A DNA stretch of 64,000 bases, taken from NCBI GenBank assembly GCA_016213405.1, contig JACRAM010000056.1, positions 1 through 64,000 on the forward strand, in the 5' to 3' direction. The notes beneath the pieces were generated by a model, which searched no databases, was not told the DNA's origin, and saw nothing but the letters and a program-made list of their open reading frames with translations. Below are positions 24,392 through 44,536 of this stretch, piece by piece. The DNA comes from Bacteroidota bacterium. Lineage in GTDB: Bacteria > Bacteroidota > Bacteroidia > Palsa-948. Numbering within the stretch: the stretch's first letter is position 1; each line of letters starts with the position of its first letter. Both the position numbers and the translations under genes were made by a program.

Positions 24392-25273
24392 ATGTACATC
24401 CCGGATTACAATTATTACAAACCCAAATCGCTGACCGAAGCACTCAAACTTCTGAAGAAAAGCAATAATGGAGCTACGCTGGCCGGAGGAACCGACCTGC
24501 TGGTTGAAATTAAAAAGGGACTCAGGTATCCCGCGGATATTATTTCCCTTTCAGGTGTAAAGGGATTGTCCTTTGTAAAAAAAGAGGGGACAAATCTTTG
24601 CATCGGTGCAACCACTACGCACAATGAAATAATTGCCAATCCGCTCGTCAGAAAATATTACCCGGCATTGGCAAATGCTTTATCTCAGATCGGATCCGAG
24701 CAGGTGCGCAACACCGCGACCATCGGGGGAAATCTTTGCACGGGGGCATCCTGCTGTGATTCCGCACCTATTTTAATCGCGCTGAACGCAAAGGTGAAAA
24801 TTGCAAGTGCCGGAAAGACAAAAACTGTTTCCCTGAAGGACTTTTTTATCTTCAATAAAAAAACTATTCTCAAAAAAGGAGAAGTGATGACCAAAATAAT
24901 TCTTCCTCTTCCAAAGCCGGGATTGGGCGCGCATTTTGAAAAATTCGGATTAAGGGAATCCGGCAATATTTCTGTGGCTTCGGTGGCTGTAATGGTGATC
25001 GCGAAAAAAAATATTTGTGTTGACGCTTGCATTGTCATTGGCGCGGTTGCCCCTACCCCCAAGATTAGTTTCAAAGCAACTGAAATGCTGAAAGGGAAAA
25101 CGCTTTCCGAACTCTCTGAGAATTCATCTTCAATTAAACAGGCAGGCGTAGCAGCCGTTGAGGATTCCGTTCCGATTGGCGACATACGCGGAGGAGCAAA
25201 TTACAGGAGAACTATTTTATCCGTTCTTACTTCACGGGCTATTGCAAAAGCAATTGCATCGGTAAAAAAATAA
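24392..25273 (+). CDS. FAD-binding subunit of a molybdenum hydroxylase
   Basis: 293 residues of the CoxM/xanthine dehydrogenase FAD-domain family. FAD loops: ATLAGGTDLLVEIKKG and TIGGNLCTGASCCDSAP. C-terminal domain: GDIRGGANYRRTILSVL. The 4-hydroxybenzoyl-CoA reductase version (HcrB) carries an extra ~40-residue loop with four Cys binding a [4Fe-4S]; it is absent here, and the region continues straight from GGNLC to SCCDSAP. Length agrees with ordinary CoxM proteins. This argues against a canonical 4-hydroxybenzoyl-CoA reductase, although the benzoyl-CoA genes nearby would make that role attractive. It and the next gene look visibly more G+C-rich than their neighbours. Confidence 0.9.
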   Translation: MYIPDYNYYKPKSLTEALKLLKKSNNGATLAGGTDLLVEIKKGLRYPADIISLSGVKGLSFVKKEGTNLCIGATTTHNEIIANPLVRKYYPALANALSQIGSEQVRNTATIGGNLCTGASCCDSAPILIALNAKVKIASAGKTKTVSLKDFFIFNKKTILKKGEVMTKIILPLPKPGLGAHFEKFGLRESGNISVASVAVMVIAKKNICVDACIVIGAVAPTPKISFKATEMLKGKTLSELSENSSSIKQAGVAAVEDSVPIGDIRGGANYRRTILSVLTSRAIAKAIASVKK

Positions 25274-25309
25274 ATTCAACAGAAAGATACGCAACTATAA
25301 AAAGAAATT

Positions 25310-29327: not shown

Positions 29328-29415
29328 ATGATATTTATCAGGATTTTTTTCTTCTGATACTTCTGGAAATCATGATGCATGTCATAGTATAAGCTAAGTA
29401 ATTGCGTCAATTTTG
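29328..29415 (+). promoter_or_regulatory. Two Fnr-type boxes plus -7 element (bcrD)
   Basis: ATGAT-ATTT-ATCAG (29328-29341) and ATGAT-GCAT-GTCAT (29372-29385), centres 44 bases apart (four helical turns). The second is centred 29.5 bases before CAATTTTG (29408-29415), one mismatch from TAnnTTTG. A TTG at 29402 lies inside this promoter, so translation of bcrD begins at the ATG at 29441. Confidence 0.72.
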
Positions 29416-29440
29416 CCTAAGAGAAAATAATTATTTACCT

Positions 29441-30280
29441 ATGGAAAAATCATTTTATACAATGGGAATTGATGTCGGAAGCAACTTCATCAAATTAGTT
29501 CTCATGGATTATTCGGACAAATCAAAACTCGTTGACAAGCAAACTGAAAAAATCCGCAAAAGAAATCCTACTCAAGTGGCTGATGAGATGATAAACACGA
29601 TGCTTCAAAAAAATAATTTAAAGTATGAAGGTGTTGCGTATCTGGCTTCCACAGGTGAAGGGGATTTGGTGAAACGCAAGCGCGGGCATTTTTACGGAAT
29701 GACCACGCACGCAAAAGGTGCCAATTTCTTTTTTCCTGATGCAAAAACGGTTGTTGATATGGGAGCGCTTTATGTACGTGCGGTAAAAGTTTCGGAAGAT
29801 GCGCGCGTGCAGGATTATAAAATGACAGGTCAATGCGCTTCAGGTTCAGGGCAGTTTGTAGAAAATATTTCGCGCTATCTCGGCTTGTCTATTGAAGAAG
29901 TCGGTGATGTTTCACTTACGGCAAAAAATCCCGAAATCTCTTCAGGAATTTGTGCAGTTCTTGCCGAAACCGATGTCATCAACATGGTCTCGCGTGGAAT
30001 TACTACGCCTGACATTATTAAAGGAATTCATCTTTCCATCGCAAACAGAATCATTAAACTCATGAGTTCGCTGAAAGGGGAATCTCCGATTATTCTCACA
30101 GGAGGAATGGCGTTGAACAAAGGAATGCTTCAGGCGATTGAAGAACAACTGGCAGAAACAGGAAAAAAGTTTGTAATCAAAACACACCCTGATGCGATTT
30201 ACGCAGGAGCAATCGGTGCAGCTTTGTGGGGAGGATTCCGCCATATTAAACTGAAAGAAAAAAAAGCAGTAGCAGCATGA
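29441..30280 (+). CDS. bcrD: Benzoyl-CoA reductase subunit D (BcrD/BzdQ-type ATPase)
   Basis: 279 residues of the ASKHA ATPase family BcrA/BcrD/HgdC. N-terminal phosphate loop GIDVGSNFIKLVLMDYS. GHFYGMTTHAKGANFFFPDA, DMGALYVRAVKVSEDA and YKMTGQCASGSGQFVENI closely recall BcrD of Thauera, with the two cluster cysteines C122 (GQCASG) and C161 (GICAVLAETDV) that bind the subunit-bridging [4Fe-4S]. It couples ATP hydrolysis to lowering the potential of electrons for ring reduction of benzoyl-CoA to cyclohexa-1,5-diene-1-carbonyl-CoA. Its partner is the BcrA part of the 39465 fusion. The start at 29441 avoids the promoter; a TTG 39 bases upstream would lie in it. A double Fnr-type box precedes it. 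Confidence 0.9.
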   Translation: MEKSFYTMGIDVGSNFIKLVLMDYSDKSKLVDKQTEKIRKRNPTQVADEMINTMLQKNNLKYEGVAYLASTGEGDLVKRKRGHFYGMTTHAKGANFFFPDAKTVVDMGALYVRAVKVSEDARVQDYKMTGQCASGSGQFVENISRYLGLSIEEVGDVSLTAKNPEISSGICAVLAETDVINMVSRGITTPDIIKGIHLSIANRIIKLMSSLKGESPIILTGGMALNKGMLQAIEEQLAETGKKFVIKTHPDAIYAGAIGAALWGGFRHIKLKEKKAVAA

Positions 30281-30585: not shown

Positions 30586-32721
30586 ATGAATTATGTGGAA
30601 ACAAAAGAAAAAAAGACAACATCAAAAGTGGTGCATGAACTGGATTCTCTTTTCAAACCTAAATCTATTGCCATTATTGGCGCTTCATCCAAAGAACTTT
30701 CCATTGGAAATGTCATTTTAAAAAATCTTGTTCATTACGGCTATACAGGAAAAATTTATCCTATCAATCCAAAAGAACCGGAAGTAAGAGGCGTAAAAGC
30801 ATATCCAACCATTTTTGATGTGCCCGGAGAAATTGATTTGGCACATGTAATAATCCCCAGCAAATTTGTTCCGCAGATAATTGAGGACTGCGGCAAGAAA
30901 GGAATCAAATCCGTTATCATTAACTCTGCCGGCTTCAGCGAAATGGGTGCTGAAGGCATGGTTCTTCAAAAAGCATTTTTGGCAAAAGCAAAAGAATACG
31001 GAGTGAGAATCTTCGGACCGAATTGCCAGGGAATAATTAATTCAGATCCTGACCTGAAAGCGTATTGCGATTTCACGTTTACATTTCCTGAACCGGGCGC
31101 TATTTCAATTGTTGCATTAAGCGGAGGAGTGGGCGCTATCATTATGCAGAGCATGTTTGATTTGGATATCGGCATGCGCATGTATGCTTCCAACGGTAAT
31201 GCCTGCGATATTTCTATTTCAGATGTGGTGAGTTATTACGGTGAGGATGAAGGAACAAAAGCCATCCTTTTATATACCGAAGGATTTCACAATCCAAGAG
31301 AATTTATGGAAGTGGCAAAAATAGTTTCAAAGAAAAAACCAATTCTCGCTATGAAAGCCGGAAGAACCGAAGCAGGAGCGCAAGCTGCCGCCTCGCACAC
31401 AGGTTCGCTTGCCGGTGTGGATATCGCCACCGAATTGATTTTTGAAAAAACCGGAATACTCGCATTTAATAATGAGGAAGAAATGTGTCAGATTGCAATG
31501 GCATTTGCCACACAGCCCATCCCGAAAGGGAACAGAGTGGGCATTATCACAAATACAGGAGGACCTGCCGTTATCGCTACTGATGAATTGGTAAGTGCTG
31601 GTTTGCAGCTTCCTGCGCTTTCCGAAAAAGCAAAAAAGATTTTAAAAGAAACAATGCTTCCGGAAGCATCTATCGGAAATCCGGTTGATGTGGTTGCAAC
31701 TGCGGGAGGAAAACATTTCCGCAGCGCGCTGGATGTGCTGATGGAGGAAGATACAATTGATTCCATCTATATAAATTTTGTAACTGCACCGTTTACCGAT
31801 GTTGATGAGGTGGCAAAAAATATTGTTGAAGTGAATAAGATGAAGCGCAAACCCATCGTTTGCAATTTCATGACGAATATGTCGCTGGATCGTTTCAAAG
31901 TAACGGCTAAGATTCTGAAAGAAGGAGGCATTCCTTGTTACAGTTTCCCTACCACTGCCGCAAAGGCGCTGGGCGCATTGTATAAATATCACAAAGTGCG
32001 TTCGAGGAATATTGGCGAGGCAAAAGTTTTTACAGATGTAAATAAAATGAAAGCCGAAACAATTTTTGCTGAAGCTAAAAAAGAAGGCAAGGAATTTCTT
32101 TCCTCCACGCAGGTATATAATTTGCTTTCCGCCTATAAAATTCCAATAGCGGATTGGAGAATTGCTGACCGTGCGTATGATGTGGCAAAGGCAGTAAAGG
32201 AAATAGGTTTTCCGGTGGTGATGAAAGCCGATGCAGAATCATTGGTTCATAAAAGCGATTTAGGAGGAGTGGTGGTTAATTTGAAAAATATGGATGAAGT
32301 GCTGACCACCGTGGAAAAGTTTCAAAAGAAATTCCAACTAAAAGATTTGAAATTCTTCATCCAGAAATTTCTTCCCGGAGGAAGAGAACTGATTGCCGGT
32401 GTGAGCGCGCAACGCGACCTCGAACCTTTGATTATGTTCGGCATAGGAGGAATTTATGTGGAAGTATTAAAAGATGTTGTTTTCAAAATCGCGCCTGTAA
32501 CAGAACTGGAAGCAACAGAAATGCTTTCCTCCATCAAGGCATCAAAAATATTGGATGGAGCGCGGGGTGAAAAACCAATTCACAAAGAAAGCGTGATTGA
32601 AATTATTCAACGGCTCTCGCAATTGGTTACCGATTTCCCTCAAATTCAGGAAATGGATTTGAACCCTATCATGGCTTTTGAGGATAAAGCGCTTGTGGTG
32701 GATGCAAGGATAAAAATTTAA
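30586..32721 (+). CDS. ADP-forming acyl-CoA ligase (fused alpha-beta)
   Basis: 711 residues. CoA-binding Rossmann domain: SIAIIGASSKELSIGN ... KIYPINPKEPEVRGVKAYPT. Ligase-CoA domain with the phospho-histidine in AASHTGSLAG. ATP-grasp domain near the C-terminus (FPVVMKADAESLVHKSDLGGV, MFGIGGIYVEVLKD, MDLNPIMAFE). Activates an organic acid to its CoA thioester using ATP -> ADP + Pi, or runs in reverse to make ATP. It sits between bcrD and a BcrB/C-type subunit (11-base gap to the latter), so it may act on benzoate or an aromatic acid and save one high-energy bond compared with AMP-forming benzoate-CoA ligase. It could also make ATP from a degradation product. Substrate unproven. Confidence 0.9.
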   Translation: MNYVETKEKKTTSKVVHELDSLFKPKSIAIIGASSKELSIGNVILKNLVHYGYTGKIYPINPKEPEVRGVKAYPTIFDVPGEIDLAHVIIPSKFVPQIIEDCGKKGIKSVIINSAGFSEMGAEGMVLQKAFLAKAKEYGVRIFGPNCQGIINSDPDLKAYCDFTFTFPEPGAISIVALSGGVGAIIMQSMFDLDIGMRMYASNGNACDISISDVVSYYGEDEGTKAILLYTEGFHNPREFMEVAKIVSKKKPILAMKAGRTEAGAQAAASHTGSLAGVDIATELIFEKTGILAFNNEEEMCQIAMAFATQPIPKGNRVGIITNTGGPAVIATDELVSAGLQLPALSEKAKKILKETMLPEASIGNPVDVVATAGGKHFRSALDVLMEEDTIDSIYINFVTAPFTDVDEVAKNIVEVNKMKRKPIVCNFMTNMSLDRFKVTAKILKEGGIPCYSFPTTAAKALGALYKYHKVRSRNIGEAKVFTDVNKMKAETIFAEAKKEGKEFLSSTQVYNLLSAYKIPIADWRIADRAYDVAKAVKEIGFPVVMKADAESLVHKSDLGGVVVNLKNMDEVLTTVEKFQKKFQLKDLKFFIQKFLPGGRELIAGVSAQRDLEPLIMFGIGGIYVEVLKDVVFKIAPVTELEATEMLSSIKASKILDGARGEKPIHKESVIEIIQRLSQLVTDFPQIQEMDLNPIMAFEDKALVVDARIKI

Positions 32722-32732: not shown

Positions 32733-33974
32733 ATGTACAAAATCCAATCCGCAAAACTGTTAAAGGAAATAATGACAAACTATTTTCTGGGGATGAAAGA
32801 CACATCCAAGAAGATGGCATGGTGCACCAGTGTTGGACCAGCCGAATTGCTTCGCTCCTTTGGCTTTGAAGTTCACTTTCCCGAAAATCACGGAGCATTA
32901 TTAGGCGCCACACGCACGGCAGGCGACCTTATTCCCGAAAGCACAAAACTTGGATATAACAATGATATATGTTCCTACCTGACTGCCGATATTGGTTCGT
33001 ATTTAAAAAAGCAAACTCCGCTGCAGGAACATTATGGTTTGGCTGGACCTCCAAAACCCGCTCTGATAGTTTACAACACCAACCAATGCCGCGAAGTTCA
33101 GGATTGGATGAACTATTTTGCCAAGGAAATGAATTGCCCCATTGCCGGAATCACTCCTCCGCGCTATATGGATGAAGTAAGCGATGCGCATATTGCTGAT
33201 GTGAGCGCGCAATTTAAGGCAATGATCCCTGCCTGTGAAAAAGCAAGCGGTAAAAAATTTGACATCGACCGCTTTCGCGAAACATTAAAACTCAGTAAAG
33301 AAGCAACCGACCTATGGAAAAAAGTATTATGGACGGCAACCGCTTCGCCATCGCCCATAAGTTTCTTCGATGCCACCATTCACATGGGACCCATTGTGGT
33401 TTTGCGCGGAACACAACTGGCAAAAGATTATTACACCGCCCTGTTAAAAGAACTTCAGGATAATGTGGAAAAGAAAATCGGGTTTCTTGCCGAAGAAAGC
33501 AGTAGAATTTATTGGGATGGAATGCCGATATGGGGAAAACTAAGACCGATGTCAGACCTGTTTATCGAAAACAAAGCCGCAGTGGTGGCTTCCACCTACT
33601 GCAACAGTTGGGTGTTTGATGCCTTTGATGAAAAACATCCGTTTGAATCCTCTGCCAAAGCATACACCGAAATATTTATCAACCGAAGCGAAGCAGCGAA
33701 AGAAAAATTATTGGCAAAACACGTAAAAGACTTTCGTATTGACGGAATGATATTTCACGATGCAAAAACCTGCGCCAATAATTCCAACTCCCGCTTCGGA
33801 ATGCCCCAACGAATCTCAGAGAAACTTGGCATTCCCACCTTAACCATCGAAGGAGATTTGTGTGATTTGCGTTTTTATTCCGAAGCACAAAGCACCACCA
33901 AGATAGAAACCTTTCTTGAACAGATTGAAAGTACAAAAACAATACATAAACCAACAGCCGTAATTAGTCATTAG
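32733..33974 (+). CDS. bcrB: Benzoyl-CoA reductase subunit, BcrB/BcrC type
   Basis: 413 residues of the 2-hydroxyacyl-CoA dehydratase / benzoyl-CoA reductase subunit family. Likely cluster cysteines: C31 (AWCTSVGPAELL), C80 (NNDICSYLTADIGSY) and C347 (AKTCANN); C119 (NTNQCREVQDW) is also conserved in style. The segment DICSYLTADIG reminds me of BcrB of Thauera. The C-terminus ends in the usual IPTLTIEGDLCDLRF ... TTKIETFLEQIE. In class I reductases this subunit pairs with a second homologue (BcrC) to hold benzoyl-CoA; only one is encoded here. It may form a homodimer, or the partner lies elsewhere. The B versus C label is uncertain. Confidence 0.8.
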   Translation: MYKIQSAKLLKEIMTNYFLGMKDTSKKMAWCTSVGPAELLRSFGFEVHFPENHGALLGATRTAGDLIPESTKLGYNNDICSYLTADIGSYLKKQTPLQEHYGLAGPPKPALIVYNTNQCREVQDWMNYFAKEMNCPIAGITPPRYMDEVSDAHIADVSAQFKAMIPACEKASGKKFDIDRFRETLKLSKEATDLWKKVLWTATASPSPISFFDATIHMGPIVVLRGTQLAKDYYTALLKELQDNVEKKIGFLAEESSRIYWDGMPIWGKLRPMSDLFIENKAAVVASTYCNSWVFDAFDEKHPFESSAKAYTEIFINRSEAAKEKLLAKHVKDFRIDGMIFHDAKTCANNSNSRFGMPQRISEKLGIPTLTIEGDLCDLRFYSEAQSTTKIETFLEQIESTKTIHKPTAVISH

Positions 33975-34309: not shown

Positions 34310-34356
34310 CCAATAACCATTGACCAATGACCAATAACCAATCACCAATGACCAAT
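34289..34356. repeat. AATGACCA-type tandem repeat
   Basis: Degenerate units CCAATGA / CCATTGA / CCAATAA repeat about eight to nine times. It lies in the leader and first codons of the next gene, so the start of that gene is hard to fix. Confidence 0.75.
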
Positions 34357-34794
34357 ATATTTAAACTATCTACAGGAGAAAAGATAAGTCCTGCCGATTT
34401 AGAAAAACTTATCGGTGAAGTATGCCATTACATTAAATATGTTGCGGTGAGCGAGGATGAAAAAGAAAACCCCATTGCGTTAATCTTTCCGAATAAAACA
34501 TTGCTATCTCAACCCGATTATAAACTAACTCCGGAAGAAGGATGCTTCTGCCCCCGCAGCTTAGATGAATTAGGCAGATGCCTCACCGGATGTTTGAAAT
34601 TAGTGAACCGACAGATAGAAGACGGCACAACAAAATTAAAATCAGCGGCAATTATCAATGTGGGTTTGCCGGATGAAAGCGAAACAAAAAGCACTTCTTC
34701 ATCAATTATTAATAAATACAAAACACTGCTTCGTGAAAAACACGGAAACAAAGTGCCTGCCGATGAAGAAATTTATTTTATAAAGAATGTTTGA
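34348..34794 (+). CDS. Stand-alone C-terminal-domain-like fragment of an AMP-binding ligase
   Basis: 148 residues. The first half (LSTGEKISPADLEKLIGEV ... IKYVAVSEDEKENPIALIFPN) resembles the C-terminal lid domain of adenylate-forming CoA ligases, in which the phrase GEKI.P..LE is usual. The second half is Cys-rich (EEGCFCPRSLDELGRCLTGC) and not like that family. There is no adenylation core anywhere near, so it could not be a ligase alone. The start is uncertain because a tandem repeat spans it (an ATG 21 bases upstream is also in frame). Role unknown; it may be a decayed remnant or a small adaptor, and it lies between the Bcr genes and the cytochrome cluster. Confidence 0.45.
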   Translation: MTNIFKLSTGEKISPADLEKLIGEVCHYIKYVAVSEDEKENPIALIFPNKTLLSQPDYKLTPEEGCFCPRSLDELGRCLTGCLKLVNRQIEDGTTKLKSAAIINVGLPDESETKSTSSSIINKYKTLLREKHGNKVPADEEIYFIKNV

Positions 34795-34869: not shown

Positions 34870-36342
34870 ATGAACAAGAAACTGATACTATATATGTCAT
34901 TAGCGGGTATCGCTTTTCTTGTCATCACTTGCAGGAAAGATGAGACAGGTTCTGATTATAAAGGATACCCGCTTGAAGTAGGAAAAATTCTTCTCACTAA
35001 ATGCGCGGTTGCCGGCTGTCATACTGATAAAAGCAAAGATGCTGCAAACGGATTATCACTCGAAAGCTGGACGAGTTTATTCAAAGGAAGCCGCTACGGA
35101 AATACAGCCGTTGTTCCATACCGCGCTGATCTGAGTTTCCTTATGTATTTTTCTAACACGTATAGTGATTTTGGAATTTCCAATAAACCCACCATGCCTC
35201 CGGGGCAGGAACCATTATCAAGAGACGAAATGACTACCCTCCGAGACTGGATAAATGCAGGTGCGCCAGCAAGAAACGGTTTGATTCCATTTTCACCTCT
35301 TTCAGAACATCAGCAATTATTCGTTATCAACCAAGGGTGCGACAATGTATATAATGTTGATGCGACAACCGGGTCCATCATGCGCTGTATAAATGTGGGT
35401 GGCAATCCCAATGCTATTGAGTCGCCTCATCAAATTGCTATGTCACGCGATGGTAAATATTTTTTTGTGTGTTTTTACAGTGGAAGCGTGTTTCAGAAAT
35501 TTCGGATTGCTGATGGTTCTTTAGCCGGGCAGGTAAACATAGGGCAAGGTTCATGGAACAGTTTTGTTACTTCGCCAGATGATAGTTTAGCGTTTGTTGT
35601 TGATTGGCAAGCCGATGGAAAAATTGCTGTAGTCAACATCAAAAACATGACGTTGCTTACATCATACAGTGGCAGCGGGCTGCTGCAATCTCCACATGGA
35701 AGCGCATTAAAAAATAATTGGCTTTATGTAACTTCATTGCCCGGAAATTTTATCTATAAAATAAACGTGTCGGATATTTACAATCCTGAATTTTTCCAAT
35801 TGCCTCTTCAACCGGGTGAACCTATCAACATTCCTCCGAAATACGACCCGCATGCCATCCATTTTTCTCCCGATGGCACTGAATATAATGTGAGTTGCCA
35901 GAAATCAAATGAAGTGAGATTCTTCAGTTCAGTCAATGACAGCTTAATTGCAGTTGTGCCCGTAGGAAAATATCCTCAGCACCCGCATTATTCCAGTTCA
36001 ACTGATTATGTTTTTTGCACTTGTGAGGAAGATGATGTAACATTTCCAGGAAAGACCGGTTCTGTATACGTGATTAATTACAAAAGTCATACTGTTGTAA
36101 GTAAAATTTTTACAGGATGGCAGCCACACGGCAATATGCCGGATGATATGAGCGGTAAAGTTTATATTCTTAACCGCAATGTAAACCCAACAGGACCTGC
36201 TCCGCATCATTCTTCTGCCTGTGGAGGTCGTAATGGAAATATGACGGCAATTGATATGAAAACATTACAGCTTGTTCCTAACTATAAACCTGAACTGGGT
36301 GCCGACCCCTATTACCCTGCAATGGCAGGTCATTATCATTAA
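34870..36342 (+). CDS. Lipoprotein with CX4CH haem motif and beta-propeller
   Basis: 490 residues. Lipobox VITC, so lipidated at C21. An unusual haem-like motif CAVAGCH (C45-C50-H51), CX4CH rather than CX2CH, sits in a cytochrome-like first ~120 residues (PTMPPGQEPLSRDEMTTLRDWINAGAP, a c-type fold). The rest is a YVTN/NHL-like beta-propeller: LFVINQGCDNVYNVDATTG, MSRDGKYFFVCFYSGS, PDDSLAFVVDW, SPDGTEYNVSCQ. Probably sits on the periplasmic or outer face of the outer membrane and handles electrons or metals. Heads a five-gene cluster of envelope cytochromes/lipoproteins. Redox partner unknown. Confidence 0.75.
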   Translation: MNKKLILYMSLAGIAFLVITCRKDETGSDYKGYPLEVGKILLTKCAVAGCHTDKSKDAANGLSLESWTSLFKGSRYGNTAVVPYRADLSFLMYFSNTYSDFGISNKPTMPPGQEPLSRDEMTTLRDWINAGAPARNGLIPFSPLSEHQQLFVINQGCDNVYNVDATTGSIMRCINVGGNPNAIESPHQIAMSRDGKYFFVCFYSGSVFQKFRIADGSLAGQVNIGQGSWNSFVTSPDDSLAFVVDWQADGKIAVVNIKNMTLLTSYSGSGLLQSPHGSALKNNWLYVTSLPGNFIYKINVSDIYNPEFFQLPLQPGEPINIPPKYDPHAIHFSPDGTEYNVSCQKSNEVRFFSSVNDSLIAVVPVGKYPQHPHYSSSTDYVFCTCEEDDVTFPGKTGSVYVINYKSHTVVSKIFTGWQPHGNMPDDMSGKVYILNRNVNPTGPAPHHSSACGGRNGNMTAIDMKTLQLVPNYKPELGADPYYPAMAGHYH

Positions 36343-36357
36343 CACTATGAACTGCAA

Positions 36358-36825
36358 ATGAAACGAATTACGAATAATATCAAGTATCAAGTATCTCCGC
36401 AAGGAGTCCTTTGGACAAGTATCAAGTATTCTTCTTTGTACTTTGTTCTTTGTACGCTATACTTTGTACTTGTTCTTACCTCCTGCCACAAAGCCGGTTC
36501 CGGAGGAGAAGTAATGTTGATGATTACAGCTGAACATCACGGCATTAAAATCATCAATCATGTGGGATATCCTGACACCGTTTTTCTGAAATACAATGCC
36601 GATGAATTGCCCGGTACAAAACCATCTGACTATGATATTTTTTTTGTTGGCACGCCAAGAAACGATGAAGTTGATTGCGATAATTTAAAGTGGGGAAAGT
36701 ATTACGTTTATATGGTGGGGTATGATAGTCTTTACGGTGGGCGGGTTAGAGGTGGAATACCTCTGAAAATAAAACGTTCTCAGCAAAAAGAAATGATAAT
36801 GGTAACTGTTCCTGTAGTAGAATAA
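36358..36825 (+). CDS. Hypothetical lipoprotein
   Basis: 155 residues; lipobox VLTSC, so lipidated at Cys 43. The mature part is beta-rich (GGEVMLMITAEHHGIKIINHVG, NADELPGTKPSDYDIFFVGT) with no known domain. The signal region is unusually long and built from simple DNA repeats (ATCAAGTATCAAGTATC; CTTTGTACTTTG-type units, 36378-36475). It lies 15 bases after the propeller lipoprotein and 6 before the cytochrome-porin, so it is part of the same operon. Confidence 0.7.
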   Translation: MKRITNNIKYQVSPQGVLWTSIKYSSLYFVLCTLYFVLVLTSCHKAGSGGEVMLMITAEHHGIKIINHVGYPDTVFLKYNADELPGTKPSDYDIFFVGTPRNDEVDCDNLKWGKYYVYMVGYDSLYGGRVRGGIPLKIKRSQQKEMIMVTVPVVE

Positions 36826-36831
36826 AATAAT

Positions 36832-38757
36832 ATGAAAGAAGTCAATAAATTTTTCTCAGGCATTGTATGGCTTCTTTTCGGAGTATGTTTTGCTTCTGCT
36901 CAGGGGCAGCCATGGGTGGCTCCGCAAGGTTGGTCTGCCAAAAAAAATCCAATCCCTTCAAGCAACGCATCTATAAAAGCCGGGAAGAATACTTACCGCA
37001 CTTTATGCATTGCCTGCCATGGTGAAACCGGAAAAGGAAACGGTAGTTTATCGTTGAATTTTAATCCGCATCCTGCCGACCACACAAGTAAAAAATTTCA
37101 GCAGCAGAAAGACGGAGAAATATTTTATAAAATAACTACCGGTAGAAATGCAATGCCACCCTTCAGCATAGCACTTTCCGAAAATGAAAGGTGGAATGTT
37201 ATCAATTATATCCGCACACTTGCCGTTTTGGATAAACCAATACCCTCAAAGAAAACCAATGTGGTTGTTGCTGTTACTCCTTCAGTTACTTCCACTTCTA
37301 CTCAGCAGAAAAATATTTCCAATGATACTTCTTCAGCGAACAAAACAAAGCTTGCAGTAAAAGCACTCGATACAATGGTGGTTCACAAGGATAGCATTGC
37401 TGCAACCAAAAAAATACAACAGATTAATATTGACACACTGTCAAAAAACACTGTTGCTAAAGATACGTTTCCCGTTTCTCTGCCAGTTATTGCTTCATCA
37501 GACAGTATGAATCCAAATTATCAAAGTGAAGATTCAAAAGAAGAAAGAAGAAAAGTTCTACTTACCGGCTCTGCAAACATTGATATGAATATTGACGGAA
37601 AAAAATTTAACTCAGCAGGATTCGCAGTGGGATTTTTGCCTCTTATAGTATGGCAACCATCAAAAAATTTATTGTTTGAATCGCATTTTCATATTTCAGC
37701 AGGATCCGGTTCACCTCAAAGCAATACATCATCTGGCAGCATGGGAGGAATGATAATGAGAACTTCAAATTCTCCTTCACCCTTGCATGGAGGAATGAGT
37801 TCAACCACTACTTCAACATCCTCTGCTTCGTCCGCTACCACTAGTGCAAGCATCATGCTGGCTTATGCTGATCTGGTTTACTTCATAAATCCTTACGTGA
37901 CACTCACAGGTGGAATGTTCTTGTCTCCATTCGGATTATATCCTGAACGTATGCACGCGCCCTGGATGAATCGTCTGCCCGATGCTCCGGCAGGAATGGG
38001 AAGCGAACAAGTGCTTCCTGAAACAGAATTGGGCATGCAGGCGAGAGGTGGAATTCCTATCTGGAAGATCAAAGCAGTTTACGCGCTGTATTTCTCGAAC
38101 GGCCCTTCACTGGTGGATGACACCAGCAAAAGTGCCGGAAAACTTTCTTACGATAATCTTACTGATAATAACAAAAACAAAGCGCTTGGCGGAAGAGTAG
38201 GTTTCCTTCCCATTCCCAACAACTCTTCTCTGGAGATTGGATTTTTTGCACAACGGGCTCGTGTCGGTAAAGACGAAACGCCTCATGCAGGCGTGCAGGC
38301 AATGCTCTATGGAGCTGATATTATGTATCATCAATATTTCAGATTCCTCAAAGGAGTAATTGATTTTAAAGGACAGCACTGCAAAGTTTCGGCAGATAAA
38401 GTTTATTACAAAGCCAATCCGATGCTAATACTCAACGTTCCTGCAGAAGATGTTAACCTGAACGATTCTACCTATCGGTTTAACAATGTTACTGAACTAT
38501 ATTTTGTAATGATTTCTTATCGTCCAACTGCATCTGAACATTTTTTAAAGAATACAGAATATATTTTCAGGTATGATTATTTAAAGGAACCGGTCTTTTC
38601 ACGATGGAACAATAGCGGATCACGCTTTACAATGGGAATTGAATATTGGTTGGATAGCCGATCTGCCTTTAAACTTGCTTATCAGGTTGGAGTGCCGGAA
38701 AATATATTTTTCAAAAACCAAAACTTATTGATGTTTCAATGGGTAATAGGATTTTGA
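36832..38757 (+). CDS. Cytochrome c - outer-membrane beta-barrel fusion
   Basis: 641 residues. Signal peptide ends near residue 23 (FASAQ). Residues ~45-125 form a monohaem cytochrome c with CIACH (C59, C62, H63) and an axial Met in RNAMPPFSIALSENERW. A Ser/Thr/Lys-rich linker (about 130-240) follows. Residues ~245-641 resemble a porin-like barrel: SANIDMNIDGKKFNSAGFAVGF, DLVYFINPYVTLTGGMFLSPFG, and an end of alternating aromatics (QNLLMFQWVIGF). The linkage of a haem domain to a barrel suggests electron passage at or through the outer membrane, but the barrel may simply anchor it. Sits between lipoprotein genes. Confidence 0.75.
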   Translation: MKEVNKFFSGIVWLLFGVCFASAQGQPWVAPQGWSAKKNPIPSSNASIKAGKNTYRTLCIACHGETGKGNGSLSLNFNPHPADHTSKKFQQQKDGEIFYKITTGRNAMPPFSIALSENERWNVINYIRTLAVLDKPIPSKKTNVVVAVTPSVTSTSTQQKNISNDTSSANKTKLAVKALDTMVVHKDSIAATKKIQQINIDTLSKNTVAKDTFPVSLPVIASSDSMNPNYQSEDSKEERRKVLLTGSANIDMNIDGKKFNSAGFAVGFLPLIVWQPSKNLLFESHFHISAGSGSPQSNTSSGSMGGMIMRTSNSPSPLHGGMSSTTTSTSSASSATTSASIMLAYADLVYFINPYVTLTGGMFLSPFGLYPERMHAPWMNRLPDAPAGMGSEQVLPETELGMQARGGIPIWKIKAVYALYFSNGPSLVDDTSKSAGKLSYDNLTDNNKNKALGGRVGFLPIPNNSSLEIGFFAQRARVGKDETPHAGVQAMLYGADIMYHQYFRFLKGVIDFKGQHCKVSADKVYYKANPMLILNVPAEDVNLNDSTYRFNNVTELYFVMISYRPTASEHFLKNTEYIFRYDYLKEPVFSRWNNSGSRFTMGIEYWLDSRSAFKLAYQVGVPENIFFKNQNLLMFQWVIGF

Positions 38758-38796
38758 AATGTAAAAATTATTTGTAACAAATCTGAAAACAGAAAA

Positions 38797-39135
38797 ATGA
38801 TAATTCTAAAACACCACAACAATAAAAGCAGGATTAAAATATTTCTGACTGCATTGTTGGTGGCAACCATCGTTTCTTCCGGATGTGTCAAAAAACCCAC
38901 AGCGTGTTTTGACGCAAGCAAAACAATTGCAGCTATTAATGAATCCATTACATTTAATTCTTCCTGCGCAACTAACATGGATAACTGTGAATGGGATTTT
39001 GGTGATGGAACAAAATCAACCGATGCTAATCCAACGCATACATACGCTGTTGCAGGAAATTACACAATCAAGATGATGGCAATGTCAAAGAAAGATAAAA
39101 TGGATGAAATTTCAAAATCAATTACTATTCAATAA
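38797..39135 (+). CDS. PKD-domain lipoprotein
   Basis: 112 residues. Lipobox VSSGC. One PKD (polycystic kidney disease-type) beta-sandwich: SKTIAAINESITFNSS, WDFGDGTKSTDANPTHTYAVAGNYTIKMMAMS. PKD domains bind proteins or sugars on the cell surface. It overlaps no other gene and is followed by the small cytochrome lipoprotein. Confidence 0.85.
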   Translation: MIILKHHNNKSRIKIFLTALLVATIVSSGCVKKPTACFDASKTIAAINESITFNSSCATNMDNCEWDFGDGTKSTDANPTHTYAVAGNYTIKMMAMSKKDKMDEISKSITIQ

Positions 39136-39148
39136 AAGCACAGAGAAA

Positions 39149-39409
39149 ATGAAGCTGCTATACTCATTATTATTCATTCTGATTATTTCGGGCTGTGCAG
39201 TAAAAGATAATACGCAAGGTACTGCAGCAAATCAATATTCCGGTTTGAAGTTATGGGAGCAGAACTGCGCTCGTTGTCATAACAGTCCTTCTCCGGCATC
39301 TTTCAGCGATGCAGAATGGGATGTGATTGGAGCACACATGCGAGTACGCGCCTACCTAATAGGAAAAGAATCAGATGAAATAATTAAATTTTTGAAAACT
39401 ATAAATTGA
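39149..39409 (+). CDS. Small c-type cytochrome lipoprotein
   Basis: 86 residues. Lipobox ISGC (lipidated Cys16) and haem motif CARCH (C40, C43, H44). The mature part is short for a cytochrome c, with a possible distal ligand near the His/Met of GAHMRVRAYL. Probably a small electron carrier of the cluster. Start chosen at 39149, where the signal peptide begins; an in-frame ATG upstream overlaps the PKD gene. Confidence 0.75.
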   Translation: MKLLYSLLFILIISGCAVKDNTQGTAANQYSGLKLWEQNCARCHNSPSPASFSDAEWDVIGAHMRVRAYLIGKESDEIIKFLKTIN

Positions 39410-39464: not shown

Positions 39465-41318
39465 ATGAAAGATATGATATCAGAAAATAAAAAGAAAAAA
39501 GTTGCCATCATTGGAATCGGCCCCGTGGGAATGATCCTTTCCGTTCACTTGCAGGAAGCGGGACTGGAAGTTGCTGTTTGTGACCTTGACAAAATAAAAA
39601 GCAATCTTATCAAAACAAACGGAGTTGTGCTGGAAGGTGTGATTAACAAAAAAGCTTCTTTTAAAAATGTTTTTAGTTCCATTGCGGATCTTGAAAAATT
39701 TAATCCTGATTTGCTGGTGGTTTGTCTAAAGACCACTCATCTTCCTTCCGCCATGAAGGAGATTGAGAAATTAAGCAACACTTCGCTTGGAGTAATATGC
39801 GCAATGAACGGAATTGATGTCGAGCAGATGGCTTCTCGCGTGATTGGAGAAAGCAGAACTTTCCGCATGGTCATCAATTTTGCAGGCAATCTCACTGCGC
39901 CAAACAGCACGAAAGTTACATTCTTCACTCCTCCGAATTACCTTGCGTCTGTAGATGATTCAAGAAAAACACAAGCAGAAGAAATTTGCGGATGGCTGAA
40001 TAAAGTTTCGCTCGAAACAAAATCCATCGGTTCATTTGAATTACTCAAACGTGTTTGGGAAAAAACCATTCTGAATGCATCACTCAGCGCCTTGTGTGCC
40101 GTGGGAAGAATGACCATTAAAGAAGCCATGAGCAACTCGGATACCGTTGAATTGGTGGAGCAGATTATTGAGGAAGCGGTGGAAGTAGCAGAAGCTGAAA
40201 AAATAAAATTTGATGACGATTTTATTCGCACCTGTCTTCGCTACTTAGGCAAAGCAGGAAATCATTTTCCATCATTGGCTGTTGATTTGTTGAACGGTCG
40301 TCCGACTGAAATTGATTACCTCAACGGAAAAATTGTGGAGTACGGACGCAAGCATTACGTCCGCACTTCCCTTAATCTTACTTTCACGAACATGGTGAAA
40401 GCGATGTCGGACAAAAATTTTTCTACATCCGTTCAGACGGCTAAAGCTGCTGTTGCGCAAAATATGGTTGCGAAAGAAATGATCGCAAAAAACGGCAGTT
40501 CGAAATTGCTCAAGTATTTTCTGGGAGTTGACTTGGGTTCGGCTTACACAAAATTCACGGTCATTGACGAACATGAAAAAATAGTTTTTCAAACAGCGCT
40601 CAAAACGTTAAACCGCGATAAAATTTCTGTGCGCCATGTGATTGAAGCATTGAAAAAAGAATATACAGTTTCCCACATCTGTGCGACCGGTTACGGGCGC
40701 AAGCATTTTGCGGATGCCGACCTGATTAAAACAGAATTAAACTGCGCTGCGCTCGGAGTTTCAAAATATTTTTCGGGAGCAAAAAACATTATTGACATTG
40801 GCGGAGAAGACATTAAAGTGATTAAATGCAAAGAGGATAATAACATTGAAAATTTTTATCTTAATGATAAATGCGCAGCAGGAACGGGTTCGTTCATCAC
40901 CGAAGTTGCTGAACGCGCTGACATCCGCATTTCCGATATGAGCGACCTCGCAAGAAAATCAACTTTCAGCAAAGAACTGAATAGTTTCTGTACTGTGTTT
41001 GCAAAAACAGAAATCATGAGCTGGATGTTTGAAGGGCTGCCGATTGAAGACATCGCAAAAGGAATTTACATCTCAATTGTCAACCGCATTATGAAACTGA
41101 GAATTGATCCTCTCTCACCCATTTATCTGATTGGAGGAGTGATTGCACATAATCCGTTTTTAAAAAATTTATTACAGGAGCGATATAAAAAGGAAGTAAG
41201 TGTGGTTGAAAAACCACAGTTTGTTGTTTCTTTTGGGGCGGCAATCTATGCGAAAGAATCAACTGCTAAAACGGATTCGCTTGACAAAACAGAAGCAACT
41301 CATCAACCAATAAAATAA
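39465..41318 (+). CDS. Fusion of ketopantoate-reductase-like dehydrogenase and BcrA-type ATPase
   Basis: 617 residues made of two full domains. Residues ~1-340: PanE/ApbA-type NAD(P)-dependent dehydrogenase with GIGPVG (17-22), FELLKRVWEKTILNA (Lys200) and PSLAVDLLNGRPTEIDYLNG (Glu282). Both catalytic residues of the family are kept. Residues ~350-617: BcrA/HgdC-type ATPase with FLGVDLGSAYTKFTVID, IDIGGEDIKVIKC, and two cluster cysteines C470 (NDKCAAGTG) and C509 (NSFCTVFAKTEI). I know of no other protein with this pairing. The second half would join BcrD as the ATP-driven activator of benzoyl-CoA reductase. The first may pass hydride or act on a pathway intermediate. Three bases before the thiolase fragment and in an operon with had, oah and dch. 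Confidence 0.88.
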   Translation: MKDMISENKKKKVAIIGIGPVGMILSVHLQEAGLEVAVCDLDKIKSNLIKTNGVVLEGVINKKASFKNVFSSIADLEKFNPDLLVVCLKTTHLPSAMKEIEKLSNTSLGVICAMNGIDVEQMASRVIGESRTFRMVINFAGNLTAPNSTKVTFFTPPNYLASVDDSRKTQAEEICGWLNKVSLETKSIGSFELLKRVWEKTILNASLSALCAVGRMTIKEAMSNSDTVELVEQIIEEAVEVAEAEKIKFDDDFIRTCLRYLGKAGNHFPSLAVDLLNGRPTEIDYLNGKIVEYGRKHYVRTSLNLTFTNMVKAMSDKNFSTSVQTAKAAVAQNMVAKEMIAKNGSSKLLKYFLGVDLGSAYTKFTVIDEHEKIVFQTALKTLNRDKISVRHVIEALKKEYTVSHICATGYGRKHFADADLIKTELNCAALGVSKYFSGAKNIIDIGGEDIKVIKCKEDNNIENFYLNDKCAAGTGSFITEVAERADIRISDMSDLARKSTFSKELNSFCTVFAKTEIMSWMFEGLPIEDIAKGIYISIVNRIMKLRIDPLSPIYLIGGVIAHNPFLKNLLQERYKKEVSVVEKPQFVVSFGAAIYAKESTAKTDSLDKTEATHQPIK

Positions 41319-41321: not shown

Positions 41322-41552
41322 ATGCAAGGATTTCACAACAAAGAAAAAGGCATCGGAATTATTTACGATGATATCTATCTGGTAAACAGTGGCGCTATCA
41401 AGATGGGTCATCCGCTTGCCACAACAGGAGCGCGGTTATCGCTCACCATTTCAAAAGAAATGAATATCAGAAAAGTGAAATATGGAATTGCCTTGGCTTG
41501 CATTGGTGGCGGTAAGGGTACAGCAATTTTATTTGAAAATCCCAATTTGTAA
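41322..41552 (+). CDS. C-terminal end of a thiolase, stand-alone (76 aa)
   Basis: 76 residues matching only the C-terminal part of thiolases: NSGAIKMGHPLATTGARLSLT with the catalytic His30 (GHP) and GIALACIGGGKGTAI with Cys60, the residue that deprotonates the nucleophile. The N-terminal ~320 residues with the acylated Cys are missing, and the sequence just upstream is the end of the PanE-BcrA gene, so this is no simple frameshift. It has its own ATG with tight 3- and 2-base spacing to its neighbours, which suggests it is still translated. It is either a decaying remnant or a subunit of a split thiolase. Confidence 0.75.
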   Translation: MQGFHNKEKGIGIIYDDIYLVNSGAIKMGHPLATTGARLSLTISKEMNIRKVKYGIALACIGGGKGTAILFENPNL

Positions 41553-41554: not shown

Positions 41555-42619
41555 ATGAGCAACGACAAATTATATCAATGGCAAATGACAGAACTCAATA
41601 AGGAGTTCAAACTCGCGGAAATTAATTTTCCTGATTTGAAAGAAGGGGAAGTGCTGGTGAAAATTGCCGGCTGTGGAGTTTGCCATACCGATTTAAGTTT
41701 CTGGCATTATGGCGTGCAAACAAAGCATGCACTTCCGCTCACACTCGGCCATGAGATTAGCGGAACAGTTGTAGCAGGTGATGACAAGTGGATGAATAAA
41801 GCGGTAATAATTCCTGCCGTACTTCCCTGTGGAGAATGTGAACTATGCAAAAAAGGAAGAAGCAATATTTGCAGAAACCAACTCATGCCGGGAAATGATT
41901 TCCAGGGTGGATTTGCTTCGCATATAAAAGTTCCTTCCAAGTTTTTATGTCCTGTTCCTGATTCGGTTTTGAAAAAATATCCGCTCGAACAACTTTCCGT
42001 AATTGCCGATGCCATTTCTACACCGTATCAGGTCATAAAAAAATCGGAACTGGAAGCCGGAGATTTAGCCATTGTAATTGGCGTGGGCGGTGTGGGGATT
42101 TATGGTGCGCTCATTGCAAAAATATTCGGAGCAAAAATAATTGCGCTTGATATTAATGATGAAAAACTTGCTACCGCAAAATCTAATGGTGTTGATGCCA
42201 CACTTAACATCAAAGAATTGGATTCAAAAACAATTAAAGAAAAAGTAAAAGAACTTGCCAAAGAAATCAAAGCGCCAAAATTCGGCTGGAAGATTTTTGA
42301 ATTCAGCGGCACAAAAGCCGGACAGGATTTGGCCTTTAATCTCATCACGTTCACATCCACGCTTTCCATTGTTGGATTCACGATGGATAAAGTAGAAGTT
42401 CGCCTGAGTAATCTGATGGCTTTTGATGCGAAGTTGATTGGAACATGGGGTTGTCGTGCCGAATTATATCCTGAAGTGTTGGATTTGATTGCAACTGATA
42501 AATTAAAAATTTCACAATTTGTACAAACTTTCCCGATGTCAAAAATAAATGAAGTGTTTAAAAATACGTTAGAACATAAATACTCCAAACGTTCGGTAAT
42601 GGTGCCGGACTTCAACTAA
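41555..42619 (+). CDS. had: 6-hydroxycyclohex-1-ene-1-carbonyl-CoA dehydrogenase
   Basis: 354-residue Zn-dependent alcohol dehydrogenase. Zn site AGCGVCHTDLSFW with GHEISG; structural Zn Cys in CGECELCKKGRSNIC; cofactor loop GVGGVGIYG. GFTMDKVEVRLSNLMAFDAKL and MPGNDFQGGFASH are close to Had of Thauera from memory. It oxidises the 6-hydroxy to the 6-oxo intermediate with NAD+. Two bases after the thiolase fragment and 31 bases before oah. Confidence 0.93.
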   Translation: MSNDKLYQWQMTELNKEFKLAEINFPDLKEGEVLVKIAGCGVCHTDLSFWHYGVQTKHALPLTLGHEISGTVVAGDDKWMNKAVIIPAVLPCGECELCKKGRSNICRNQLMPGNDFQGGFASHIKVPSKFLCPVPDSVLKKYPLEQLSVIADAISTPYQVIKKSELEAGDLAIVIGVGGVGIYGALIAKIFGAKIIALDINDEKLATAKSNGVDATLNIKELDSKTIKEKVKELAKEIKAPKFGWKIFEFSGTKAGQDLAFNLITFTSTLSIVGFTMDKVEVRLSNLMAFDAKLIGTWGCRAELYPEVLDLIATDKLKISQFVQTFPMSKINEVFKNTLEHKYSKRSVMVPDFN

Positions 42620-42650: not shown

Positions 42651-43751
42651 ATGGGAGAACTTAAAAACCATAACCTTGTTGAAACTAACTACAAGGATAT
42701 TATTTTCGAAAAACGCCCCTGTATAAATCATGACGGCAAACCTGTCAAGGATTTATACAACGCATGGATTATTCTCAACAATCCCAAGCAGTATAATTCT
42801 TACACTACACAGGCGGTAAAAGAAATTATTCTCGCGTTTGGCGAAGCGTCCAATGACAGAAGCGTTGTTGCGGTTGTGTTTACCGGTGTTGGTGATAAAG
42901 CATTTTGCACAGGCGGAAACACAAAAGAATATGCAGAATATTATTCGGGAAATCCTCAGGAGTATTCACAGTATATGCGTTTGTTCAATGATATGGTCAG
43001 CGCTATTCTGAAATGCGAAAAACCCGTAGTTTGCCGAGTGAACGGAATGCGTATAGGGGGTGGACAAGAAATCGGAATGGCTTGTGATTTCACGATTGCT
43101 CAGGATATGGCTCGCTTTGGGCAAGCAGGTCCAAAACACGGAAGCGCAGCAATTGGCGGTGCAACAGATTTTCTTCATCTATACGTGGGAGTAGAACGAG
43201 CAATGATGTCACTCACACTTTGCGAACCATGGACAGCTCATCAGGCATACAATTTCGGAATGATCACAGATATTGTTCCTGCCTTGAAAGTAGATGGAAA
43301 ATTTATTGCCAACCCACTTGTAGTTGTAGATAAATATACTGATGAATTCGGAAAAATTATTTTTGGCACGATGAAAACAGGAGACGAAATGAAGAAAGGA
43401 AAAGAAGTAATGTCAAAAGGAACGGTTGATTTATCAATACTGGATGAAGCCGTCAATAAACTTATTGCGAAACTATTGCACACGTTTCCGAATTGTCTCG
43501 CAAAAACTTTGTCTGAAGTGCGCAAGAAAAAACTCGAGCACTGGGATAAAAATAAAGAATCAAGCAGAGAATGGCTTGCACTGAATATGATGACAGAAGC
43601 GAAAGCAGGATTTAAAGCATTCAATGACGGGCCCAAAGATAATCGCGAGGCGGATTTCATCAAACTCCGACAACTGCTTGCTGAAGGTAAAGAATGGAAC
43701 GAAGAAATGCATAAATTAATTTCTCCTCAATATCAAACTGCAAAAGCATGA
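42651..43751 (+). CDS. oah: 6-oxocyclohex-1-ene-1-carbonyl-CoA hydrolase
   Basis: 366-residue crotonase-family hydrolase; much longer than ordinary enoyl-CoA hydratases (~260). Marks: FCTGGNTKEYAEYYSGNPQE, RLFNDMVSAILKCEKPVVCR, NGMRIGGGQEIGMACDF, RFGQAGPKHGSAAIGGATDF, WLALNMMTEAKAGFKAFNDG. These match Oah proteins of anaerobic benzoate degraders. It cleaves the ring of 6-oxocyclohex-1-ene-1-carbonyl-CoA, giving 3-hydroxypimelyl-CoA. Oah is often used as the marker gene for anaerobic aromatic degradation. Overlaps dch by 4 bases. Confidence 0.95.
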   Translation: MGELKNHNLVETNYKDIIFEKRPCINHDGKPVKDLYNAWIILNNPKQYNSYTTQAVKEIILAFGEASNDRSVVAVVFTGVGDKAFCTGGNTKEYAEYYSGNPQEYSQYMRLFNDMVSAILKCEKPVVCRVNGMRIGGGQEIGMACDFTIAQDMARFGQAGPKHGSAAIGGATDFLHLYVGVERAMMSLTLCEPWTAHQAYNFGMITDIVPALKVDGKFIANPLVVVDKYTDEFGKIIFGTMKTGDEMKKGKEVMSKGTVDLSILDEAVNKLIAKLLHTFPNCLAKTLSEVRKKKLEHWDKNKESSREWLALNMMTEAKAGFKAFNDGPKDNREADFIKLRQLLAEGKEWNEEMHKLISPQYQTAKA

Positions 43752-44536
43752 AAAAAGTAATTGTAAAATATTCTCACGGTAACTCAATTGCCAGGATAAC
43801 TCTTACGGATGGAAAAGGAAATGTTCTGGATCATCTGATGATGGAAGAACTTCAATCCGTTTTTAATGAATTCAAAAGCAAACCCGAAATCAAACTCATC
43901 ACATTTGAAGGAGCAGGAAAACATTTTTCATTTGGAGCAAGTGTGGAAGAACACAAAAAAGAATTTGCCGCAGCTATGCTCAGGGGGTTTCATCAGTTAT
44001 TTTATTCGCTGAGAGATTTATCCATTCCGACTGCCGCAATCATCAGCGGACAATGTTTGGGTGGCGGAATGGAACTTGCCATCATGTGTAATTTTCTTTT
44101 CGCAGATAGAACGGCAAAGTTCGGTCAACCCGAAATTATGCTCGGAGTTTTTCCTCCACCTGCTTCTCTCATTCTTCCTGAAAAAATCGGATTGGCGAGG
44201 GCTGAAGATTTATTGCTGACAGGAAAAACTATTTCAGCACAAGAGGCAAAATCCATCGGACTGGTAAATGAGTTGTATGACGATAGAGTTGCCATGGATA
44301 CAGAAATAGAAAAATGGATTGAAACAAACATTTTACCTAAAAGCTCTTCATCTCTGCGGTTTGCTGTGCGTGCTTCACGCGCAAAATTCAATCATCTGCT
44401 CAGCAATTTTCTTCCTCAGTTAGAAAGTCTGTACGTAAAACAGTTGATGGAAACCCACGATGCAAATGAAGGAATAAACTCATTTATCGAAAAAAGAAAA
44501 CCCATTTGGGAAAACAATAAAGCATTTTCAAAATGA
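43748..44536 (+). CDS. dch: Cyclohexa-1,5-diene-1-carbonyl-CoA hydratase
   Basis: 262-residue crotonase-family protein. GKHFSFGASVEEHKKEFAAAML, GQCLGGGMELAIMCNF and KFGQPEIMLGVFPPPASLILP are characteristic of dienoyl-CoA hydratases of the benzoyl-CoA pathway. It adds water to the product of benzoyl-CoA reductase to give 6-hydroxycyclohex-1-ene-1-carbonyl-CoA. The start overlaps the stop of oah (ATGA) in an operon PanE-BcrA/thiolase'/had/oah/dch, which is the chemical order in reverse for the last three. Confidence 0.92.
   Translation: MKKVIVKYSHGNSIARITLTDGKGNVLDHLMMEELQSVFNEFKSKPEIKLITFEGAGKHFSFGASVEEHKKEFAAAMLRGFHQLFYSLRDLSIPTAAIISGQCLGGGMELAIMCNFLFADRTAKFGQPEIMLGVFPPPASLILPEKIGLARAEDLLLTGKTISAQEAKSIGLVNELYDDRVAMDTEIEKWIETNILPKSSSSLRFAVRASRAKFNHLLSNFLPQLESLYVKQLMETHDANEGINSFIEKRKPIWENNKAFSK

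Follow-up and report, generated by a model that had tools for sequence, protein, structure and literature searches.

Gene content of the locus

The gene considered here occupies positions 39465..41318 on the forward strand of the window, i.e., of the whole 64,000-nucleotide stretch of Bacteroidota DNA that was analysed, and encodes a protein of 617 residues in one open frame. According to hmmscan, the protein matches the Pfam families ApbA (residues 13-152), ApbA_C (194-314) and BcrAD_BadFG (353-596), each with a score well beyond the curated threshold, that is, a PanE-type dehydrogenase half is followed by an activase half. The linker between them (residues 317-349, 40413..40511, forward strand) varies in length and sequence in the alignment and has pLDDT < 50 in the structure model; for the fusion as a whole, the AF2 model reaches pLDDT 76 and pTM 0.49, and the mutual placement of the two domains in it is unreliable. 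Comparison of the fusion with three close relatives gave dN/dS of 0.04-0.09 for the PanE half and 0.03-0.06 for the activase half, so both are under strong purifying selection, while the linker is looser than either (0.14-0.26 where measurable). Full-length fusions (49-84% identity) are encoded in dozens of Bacteroidota genomes, many of them independent, which together with the dN/dS values rules out an assembly, frameshift or sequencing artefact as the origin of the gene; the first-pass annotation was right in describing a single 617-residue ORF with two complete domains. It had also proposed to search other genomes for the same domain order beside bcr genes, and this search was positive (the pattern scan for fusions was confined to close relatives). 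It is thereby confirmed that the fusion is real and widely conserved, and that it combines two apparently intact enzymes within a benzoyl-CoA cluster.

The neighbouring genes named in this paragraph are all on the forward strand. Upstream of the fusion lie bcrD (29402..30280), encoding a genuine activase subunit of benzoyl-CoA reductase (TIGR02261, 314.5 bits, cut-off 312.85), the gene of a 711-residue ADP-forming acyl-CoA ligase (30586..32721), which replaces the AMP-forming ligase of most relatives, and the gene of a HadB-like protein of the HGD-D type (32733..33974), hereafter HGDD. Downstream are had (41555..42619; 6-hydroxycyclohex-1-ene-1-carbonyl-CoA dehydrogenase, TIGR03201, 461 bits, cut-off 338.65), oah (42651..43751; 6-oxocyclohex-1-ene-1-carbonyl-CoA hydrolase, TIGR03200, 613 bits, cut-off 464.45) and dch (43748..44536; cyclohexa-1,5-diene-1-carbonyl-CoA hydratase), whose best model, TIGR03189, scores 222.9 bits, below its cut-off of 292.5.

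Several other features of this region were observed. The gene at 34327..34794 (forward strand) encodes a protein of 155 aa (PF23562) that consists of just the C-terminal domain of an AMP-forming acyl-CoA ligase and has its homologue in the C-terminal part of the ligase of L014 and others. Such a stand-alone domain is retained, with dN/dS of 0.08-0.25, in several genomes in which the full AMP-forming ligase has given way to an ADP-forming one (besides the window, loci L011, L012, L020, L168, L169 and L174), and a CxCP...C...C motif is found both in the stand-alone domain and in the full-length ligases of relatives. Positions 34870-39409 hold a cassette that encodes a YVTN-type beta-propeller, a PKD protein, a small CxxCH protein, a protein of 641 aa whose N-terminal domain is a cytochrome c, and small ORFs; it is mostly present in L020 and G653 and partly in G595 and G626. 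Immediately 3' of the fusion is a remnant (41322..41551, forward strand) of the thiolase gene found after the fusion in relatives. It has lost about 1,023 bp internally without a change of frame, so that about 22 codons of the N-terminus are joined to about 54 of the C-terminus, with about 6 bp common at the junction; the gene is intact in G557 of the same genus, and the remnant in the window is either a strain deletion or an assembly fault. Genes resembling those of 4-hydroxybenzoyl-CoA reductase (HCR) lie at 24392-28123, with gamma and alpha subunits fused into a protein of 937 aa. The FAD subunit encoded there (293 aa) matches the HCR beta model in its first third only and fits XdhB better, so that it may lack the extra [4Fe-4S] loop of HCR.

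The dehydrogenase half

Residues 12-316 (39498..40412, forward strand) form an NAD(P)-dependent dehydrogenase domain of the PanE/ApbA family (TIGR00745, 156.9 bits, cut-off 141.35), with both ApbA domains, the GxGxxG motif and the active-site lysine and glutamate (codons for K200 at 40062-40064 and for E282 at 40308-40310). Lys200, Glu282, Asn115 and Ser270, which correspond to K176, E256, N98 and S244 of E. coli PanE, are invariant together with GxGxxG in the alignment of 29 out of 29 relatives, in agreement with the earlier statement that the catalytic residues are present, which also holds for the cluster cysteines of the activase half (see below). The genomic context of the fusion is not that of pantothenate synthesis, and the nearest solved structures are D-mandelate dehydrogenases. 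These enzymes and the ketopantoate reductases, both of the PanE/ApbA family (3wfi, 5x20, 2ew2, E. coli PanE), share with our domain the fold, GxGxxG and the catalytic Lys/Glu/Asn/Ser; in contrast to them, it has a fusion partner and a family-specific invariant R-x-V-x-N...FF-x-x-PNY segment, and carries, like all the relatives, serine (Ser208) at the position of Asn184. R134 is invariant as well. The nearly invariant Asp40 stands at the end of strand 2, which suggests a preference for NAD. The residue set fits 2-oxo acids, and the domain is probably an NAD-dependent D-2-hydroxyacid dehydrogenase.

The activase half is not BcrA

Residues 350-600 (40512..41264, forward strand) constitute an activase domain of the HgdC/HadI type (TIGR00241, 179.1 bits, cut-off 125.4). 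Its two cluster cysteines, C470 (codon 40872-40874) and C509 (40989-40991), stand in the NDKCAAGTG and FCTVFA contexts of acyl-CoA dehydratase activases and are invariant in 19 fusions. Among solved structures, the domain matches those of MbdQ, HadI and HgdC.

The first-pass annotation had named this half a BcrA-type ATPase, an identification that does not stand: it scores 101.3 bits with the BcrA model TIGR02259 (cut-off 578) and 77 bits with the BzdQ model (cut-off 380). The genome has a BcrA of its own, encoded on contig C69 by the last of three consecutive genes, bcrC, bcrB (both above cut-off) and bcrA; with 441.6 bits it is also below 578 but far closer. In relatives, e.g., L014, L017, L018, L019, L021 and L084, all these genes form one operon, bcrC-bcrB-bcrA-bcrD-ligase-HGDD-FUSION-thiolase-had-oah-dch, and since bcrCBAD is intact beside the fusion there, the reductase is complete without it. 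Judged by gene content, the fusion is thus not the ATPase partner of BcrB, BcrC and BcrD. As to the class I benzoyl-CoA reductases (Thauera BcrABCD, Aromatoleum BzdNOPQ, MbdONPQ), our system belongs to the same superfamily (activase plus HGD-D protein), is located in the same operon and has an activase half resembling MbdQ; it differs in failing the BcrA and BcrB models and in occurring alongside a genuine BcrA-D.

It had further been suggested that the dehydrogenase could hand hydride or electrons to the reductase system or else act on a ring-derived intermediate, which may be the case. As to the former, the only electron carrier of the PanE fold is NAD(P)H, whereas the cluster of the activase accepts single electrons, which argues against any direct feed from one to the other: the PanE domain lacks flavin and Fe-S, and transfer from it to a [4Fe-4S] activase contradicts established chemistry, so that such transfer is chemically implausible. 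The position between the bcr and the had/oah/dch genes speaks for a BcrA subunit combined with an electron-donating dehydrogenase. This reading is nevertheless extremely improbable, given the score far below the BcrA model, the genuine BcrA in the same genome and in the operon of relatives, the PanE domain devoid of a one-electron cofactor, and the unfused activase, whose gene lies away from bcrA in G160 and follows hcrCA in G294.

The HadB-like protein HGDD

HGDD, the predicted partner of the activase, consists of 413 aa (PF06050, 205.8 bits) and scores 220 bits with the HadB model and 153 bits with the BcrB model. Its sequence match in the PDB is 3o3m, HadB, the catalytic alpha subunit of 2-hydroxyisocaproyl-CoA dehydratase, and its AF2 model (pLDDT 83.9) likewise matches the HadB alpha subunit best (TM 0.87-0.89), followed by MbdO and BzdO and, more weakly, by DCCP. 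Five cysteines are invariant (C31, C80, C119, C290, C347). Three of them, C80, C119 and C347, are the three cysteines of HadB, BcrB and BzdO; C31 and C290 are additional to those of HadB, and C290 aligns with a cysteine of DCCP, YjiM and BzdN that is absent from HadB, BcrB and BzdO (for the clusters of BzdO and BzdN, see PMC11971306). S33 and E51 of HGDD are invariant too and are the equivalents of Ser37 and Glu55, the catalytic pair of HadB. HGDD unites these features of a 2-hydroxyacyl-CoA dehydratase: the HGD-D fold, the three [4Fe-4S] cysteines and the HadB-type Ser/Glu.

No HadC-like beta subunit was found in the genome of the window, where BcrC, BcrB and HGDD are the only HGD-D proteins, and most of the carriers of the Bcr type that were examined likewise have no dedicated beta subunit, the exception being G465 with extra HGD-D genes. 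HGDD is therefore probably a homodimer. BcrC is unlikely to serve as its beta subunit, as HGDD is still 65-69% identical where BzdN replaces BcrC. A single HGD-D protein working with one activase is also the arrangement of DCCP and of E. coli YjiM with YjiL, with which HGDD has the C290-type cysteine in common. In contrast to them, it keeps the HadB-type active-site segment and has five invariant cysteines in place of the six of the double-cubane model NF040772, with which it scores weakly (53.6 bits, cut-off 350).

Co-occurrence and gene order

The genomes sampled, one per species and mostly metagenome-assembled, belong to Bacteroidota in GTDB's sense. In 395 Bacteroidota genomes, where the halves of the fusion were scored as present at E < 1e-80, both halves and HGDD were confined to an identical set of four genomes (Fisher p about 1e-9), and among 395 genomes of the window's class HGDD is encoded in 52, of which 51 have a second, BcrB-like match of 27-33% identity (Fisher p about 1e-63), both p-values being too small owing to kinship and common inheritance of the operon. 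No genome of this class has BcrB without HGDD, a statement valid for the Bcr type only, since detection of the Bzd type through HGDD matches is insensitive. The fusion is present in 48 of the 52 HGDD carriers (in one of them split by a contig end), three more (G731, G809, G797) have both halves unfused, and in the remaining one, G814, which is 67% complete and whose contig is cut, neither half was found. In the class of G160, 15 of 245 genomes encode HGDD, all of them together with a reductase of the Bcr or Bzd type. Of the genomes departing from this pattern, G406 has the fusion, and HGDD was not found in its fragmented assembly; G461 is 70% complete; G536, with a divergent reductase and no HGDD, is probably a true exception.

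The order of the three genes is variable. While HGDD and the fusion are separated by the cassette 34870-39409 in the window, they are direct neighbours in most relatives. The order is panE-hgdd-act in G403 and hgdd-panE-act, as separate neighbours, in G439 and G451; other genes are interleaved in G294 (hgdd-panE-hcrB-hcrCA-act), G797 (panE-had-oah-dch-transporter-hgdd-act) and the Bzd-type genomes G513 and G521 (bzdNO..PQV-ligase-hgdd-panE-hisC-panE-mobA-xdhC-korABC-hcrB-hcrCA-act-had), and in G160 panE, hgdd and act are all dispersed. The other carriers have the fused form. In the trees, all fusions fall on one side of a branch in the PanE half, which corresponds to one origin, with weak support (52/40); the tree of the activase half needs two changes for the distribution of fused and unfused forms. 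As a separate observation, panE and the activase gene are separate neighbours in G731 (C60:54072-55962) and G809 (C255:14382-16161), within the family f82 that otherwise has the fusion, perhaps as a result of secondary splitting.

That the domains might elsewhere be merely adjacent genes had been named beforehand as an observation that would speak against a working unit. Adjacent forms do exist, but so do fused ones, and the existence of both argues for a working pair rather than against it. The fusion could still be neutral, having arisen by read-through between adjacent genes of an operon whose tasks are unrelated, as might be thought from the variable linker, the unfused hgdd-panE-act neighbours in G439 and G451 and the separate neighbours in G731 and G809. 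We regard this as unlikely: the halves and HGDD are kept together even where they are dispersed (G160) or interleaved with other genes (G294, G797), and the fused form persists across many families. The retention of the three parts in one genome despite shuffling, and the fusion of two of them, are our main argument for one module. We infer that the dehydrogenase, the activase and HGDD make up a three-part module, which accompanies benzoyl-CoA reductase in nearly every Bacteroidota genome having it, and that the partner of the activase is most likely HGDD.

Possible function of the module

The reading that we prefer, with our own judgement of it evenly divided, is that the fusion and HGDD form a module for the dehydration of 2-hydroxyacyl-CoA, activated by ATP and equipped with a D-2-hydroxyacid dehydrogenase of its own, from which the benzoyl-CoA pathway is fed; the pairing of the activase with HGDD, the dehydratase chemistry, the substrate, the direction and the preference for NAD are the inferred parts of it. 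The PanE-family dehydrogenase would reduce a 2-oxo acid to an (R)-2-hydroxy acid, whose thioester would be made by the CoA ligase of the cluster. The activase dimer, holding one [4Fe-4S] cluster between C470 and C509 of its two subunits, would then charge HGDD, ATP driving the injection of a low-potential electron, and HGDD would remove water to give a 2-enoyl-CoA, to be passed by the beta-oxidation enzymes of the operon (thiolase, hydratase/3-hydroxyacyl-CoA dehydrogenase) to the benzoyl-CoA pathway. The substrates are perhaps aryl-lactates, with phenyllactyl-CoA converted to cinnamoyl-CoA and further to benzoyl-CoA; a route from aryl-pyruvate through aryl-lactate and cinnamoyl-CoA to benzoyl-CoA is outlined in PMC13416013, citing Dickert 2002.

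A dehydratase module is the most economical reading of the three-part co-occurrence, the linkage surviving rearrangement and the likeness to HadB and to D-mandelate dehydrogenases. The combination of a 2-oxo acid dehydrogenase, an activase and a HadB-like catalytic protein is likewise that of the Clostridioides difficile system LdhA, HadA, HadI and HadBC and of the phenyllactyl-CoA dehydratase FldABC/FldI of C. sporogenes, the HadB system being the closest to HGDD in sequence and fold. In contrast to both systems, our dehydrogenase is of the PanE family and shares one polypeptide with the activase, a HadC-like beta subunit is missing, HGDD has two more invariant cysteines, and the genes are sited in a benzoyl-CoA operon. 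The missing dedicated beta subunit, given that the 2-hydroxyacyl-CoA dehydratases known so far are heterodimers, and the presence of C31 and C290 in addition to the three cysteines of HadB stand against the dehydratase reading; nor was a CoA-transferase like FldA noticed in the cluster. So does the distribution: a peripheral route for amino acids should be patchy among benzoate degraders, whereas the module is almost obligatory. This almost one-to-one link with the reductase is what chiefly speaks against an exclusively peripheral role, and it leaves room for those alternatives that place the module in the central pathway.

According to one of these alternatives, which we consider somewhat unlikely, the activase and HGDD are a new ATP-driven reductase whose substrate would be, e.g., a substituted benzoyl-CoA or some side product, and PanE reduces or oxidises a neighbouring intermediate. 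A central role suits better the tie with class I benzoyl-CoA reductases of both the Bcr and the Bzd types, and a reductase would accord with the five invariant cysteines (C290 as in DCCP, YjiM and BzdN) and the lack of a beta subunit, features that resemble those of the homodimeric DCCP reductases; moreover, the activase gene in G294, G513 and G521 overlaps with, or directly adjoins, the end of a 4-hydroxybenzoyl-CoA-reductase-like gene. On the other hand, HGDD is nearest in sequence and fold to HadB rather than to a reductase, the sixth double-cubane cysteine is not conserved in it, the residue set of PanE suits 2-oxo acids and, to our knowledge, the benzoyl-CoA pathways of Thauera and Aromatoleum work without a module of this kind.

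The second alternative leads from the glutaconyl-CoA of the lower benzoyl-CoA pathway to 2-oxoglutarate: HGDD would hydrate glutaconyl-CoA to 2-hydroxyglutaryl-CoA, PanE would oxidise 2-hydroxyglutarate, and the 2-oxoglutarate formed would fuel a 2-oxoacid:ferredoxin oxidoreductase supplying electrons to benzoyl-CoA reductase. Such a route would explain the nearly obligatory tie to the central pathway and is consistent with the korABC-like genes inside the cluster in G513, G521 and G828, with the HgdC-like activase and with the invariant R134 of PanE, which could bind a second carboxylate. We hold it to be distinctly unlikely: the role of R134 is a guess, the route would require a glutaryl-CoA dehydrogenase of the non-decarboxylating type as well as a step of CoA transfer, and in denitrifiers the citric acid cycle is the source of 2-oxoglutarate.

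More generally, and tentatively, since we hold it to be possible rather than probable, HGDD might be an enzyme that the ring-breaking Bacteroidota carry almost always as the third of the HGD-D type, next to BcrB and BcrC, probably homodimeric and, with its five invariant cysteines, intermediate between [4Fe-4S] dehydratases and double-cubane reductases. Its private activase would be fused to a dehydrogenase of the same metabolite, and the whole would be a new ATP-driven radical enzyme needed by the benzoyl-CoA pathway of this phylum.

Anaerobic ring reduction has so far been described mostly in Pseudomonadota and in a small number of Firmicutes. A complete class I benzoyl-CoA operon is present in many uncultured Bacteroidota, nearly all of which also have the PanE-activase-HGDD module. 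In the literature searched we found no paper combining a ketopantoate reductase and a benzoyl-CoA reductase in such a unit, and the module appears to be previously undescribed; in its presumed function, it would be a variant of activation by HgdC/HadI that is associated, in Bacteroidota, with the benzoyl-CoA pathway. Were it a dehydratase, it would provide an entry route to this pathway within the operon, e.g., from aromatic amino acids; were it a reductase, it would join the small group of enzymes reaching potentials near -1 V. The fusion points to the pair of enzymes to be tested jointly, and the unfused relatives are ready controls.

Further observations in related genomes

In the bzd operons of G521 and G513 (L082 15335-18640 and L083 4859-7900) a hisC-type aminotransferase gene lies between two panE paralogues, and the panE-hisC pair is also present in G160 (L030). 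As a proof of an aromatic amino acid route this vicinity is weakened by the fact that the gene is the sole hisC of G513, G521 and G160, so that it may simply serve histidine synthesis. Three genomes of the Bzd type encode a half-length BcrC-like protein comprising the N-terminal and middle parts, with the same end (GAYC, stop), upstream of a hydantoinase-like gene (L048 5325-6080, reverse strand; L127 3527-4258; L128 3575-4354). These proteins were rejected as candidates for the beta subunit of HGDD, being encoded elsewhere with no link to the module. Tandem arrays of HGD-D genes with BzdN-like and activase-like genes are located apart from the bcr cluster at L129 (G465, contig 48) and L097 (G506). 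Finally, a gene of about 375 aa, saccharopine-dehydrogenase-like by eye, lies between bcrA and bcrD in G656, G424 and G059 (L172 4537-5664, L085 6284-7423 and L033 14968-16089).
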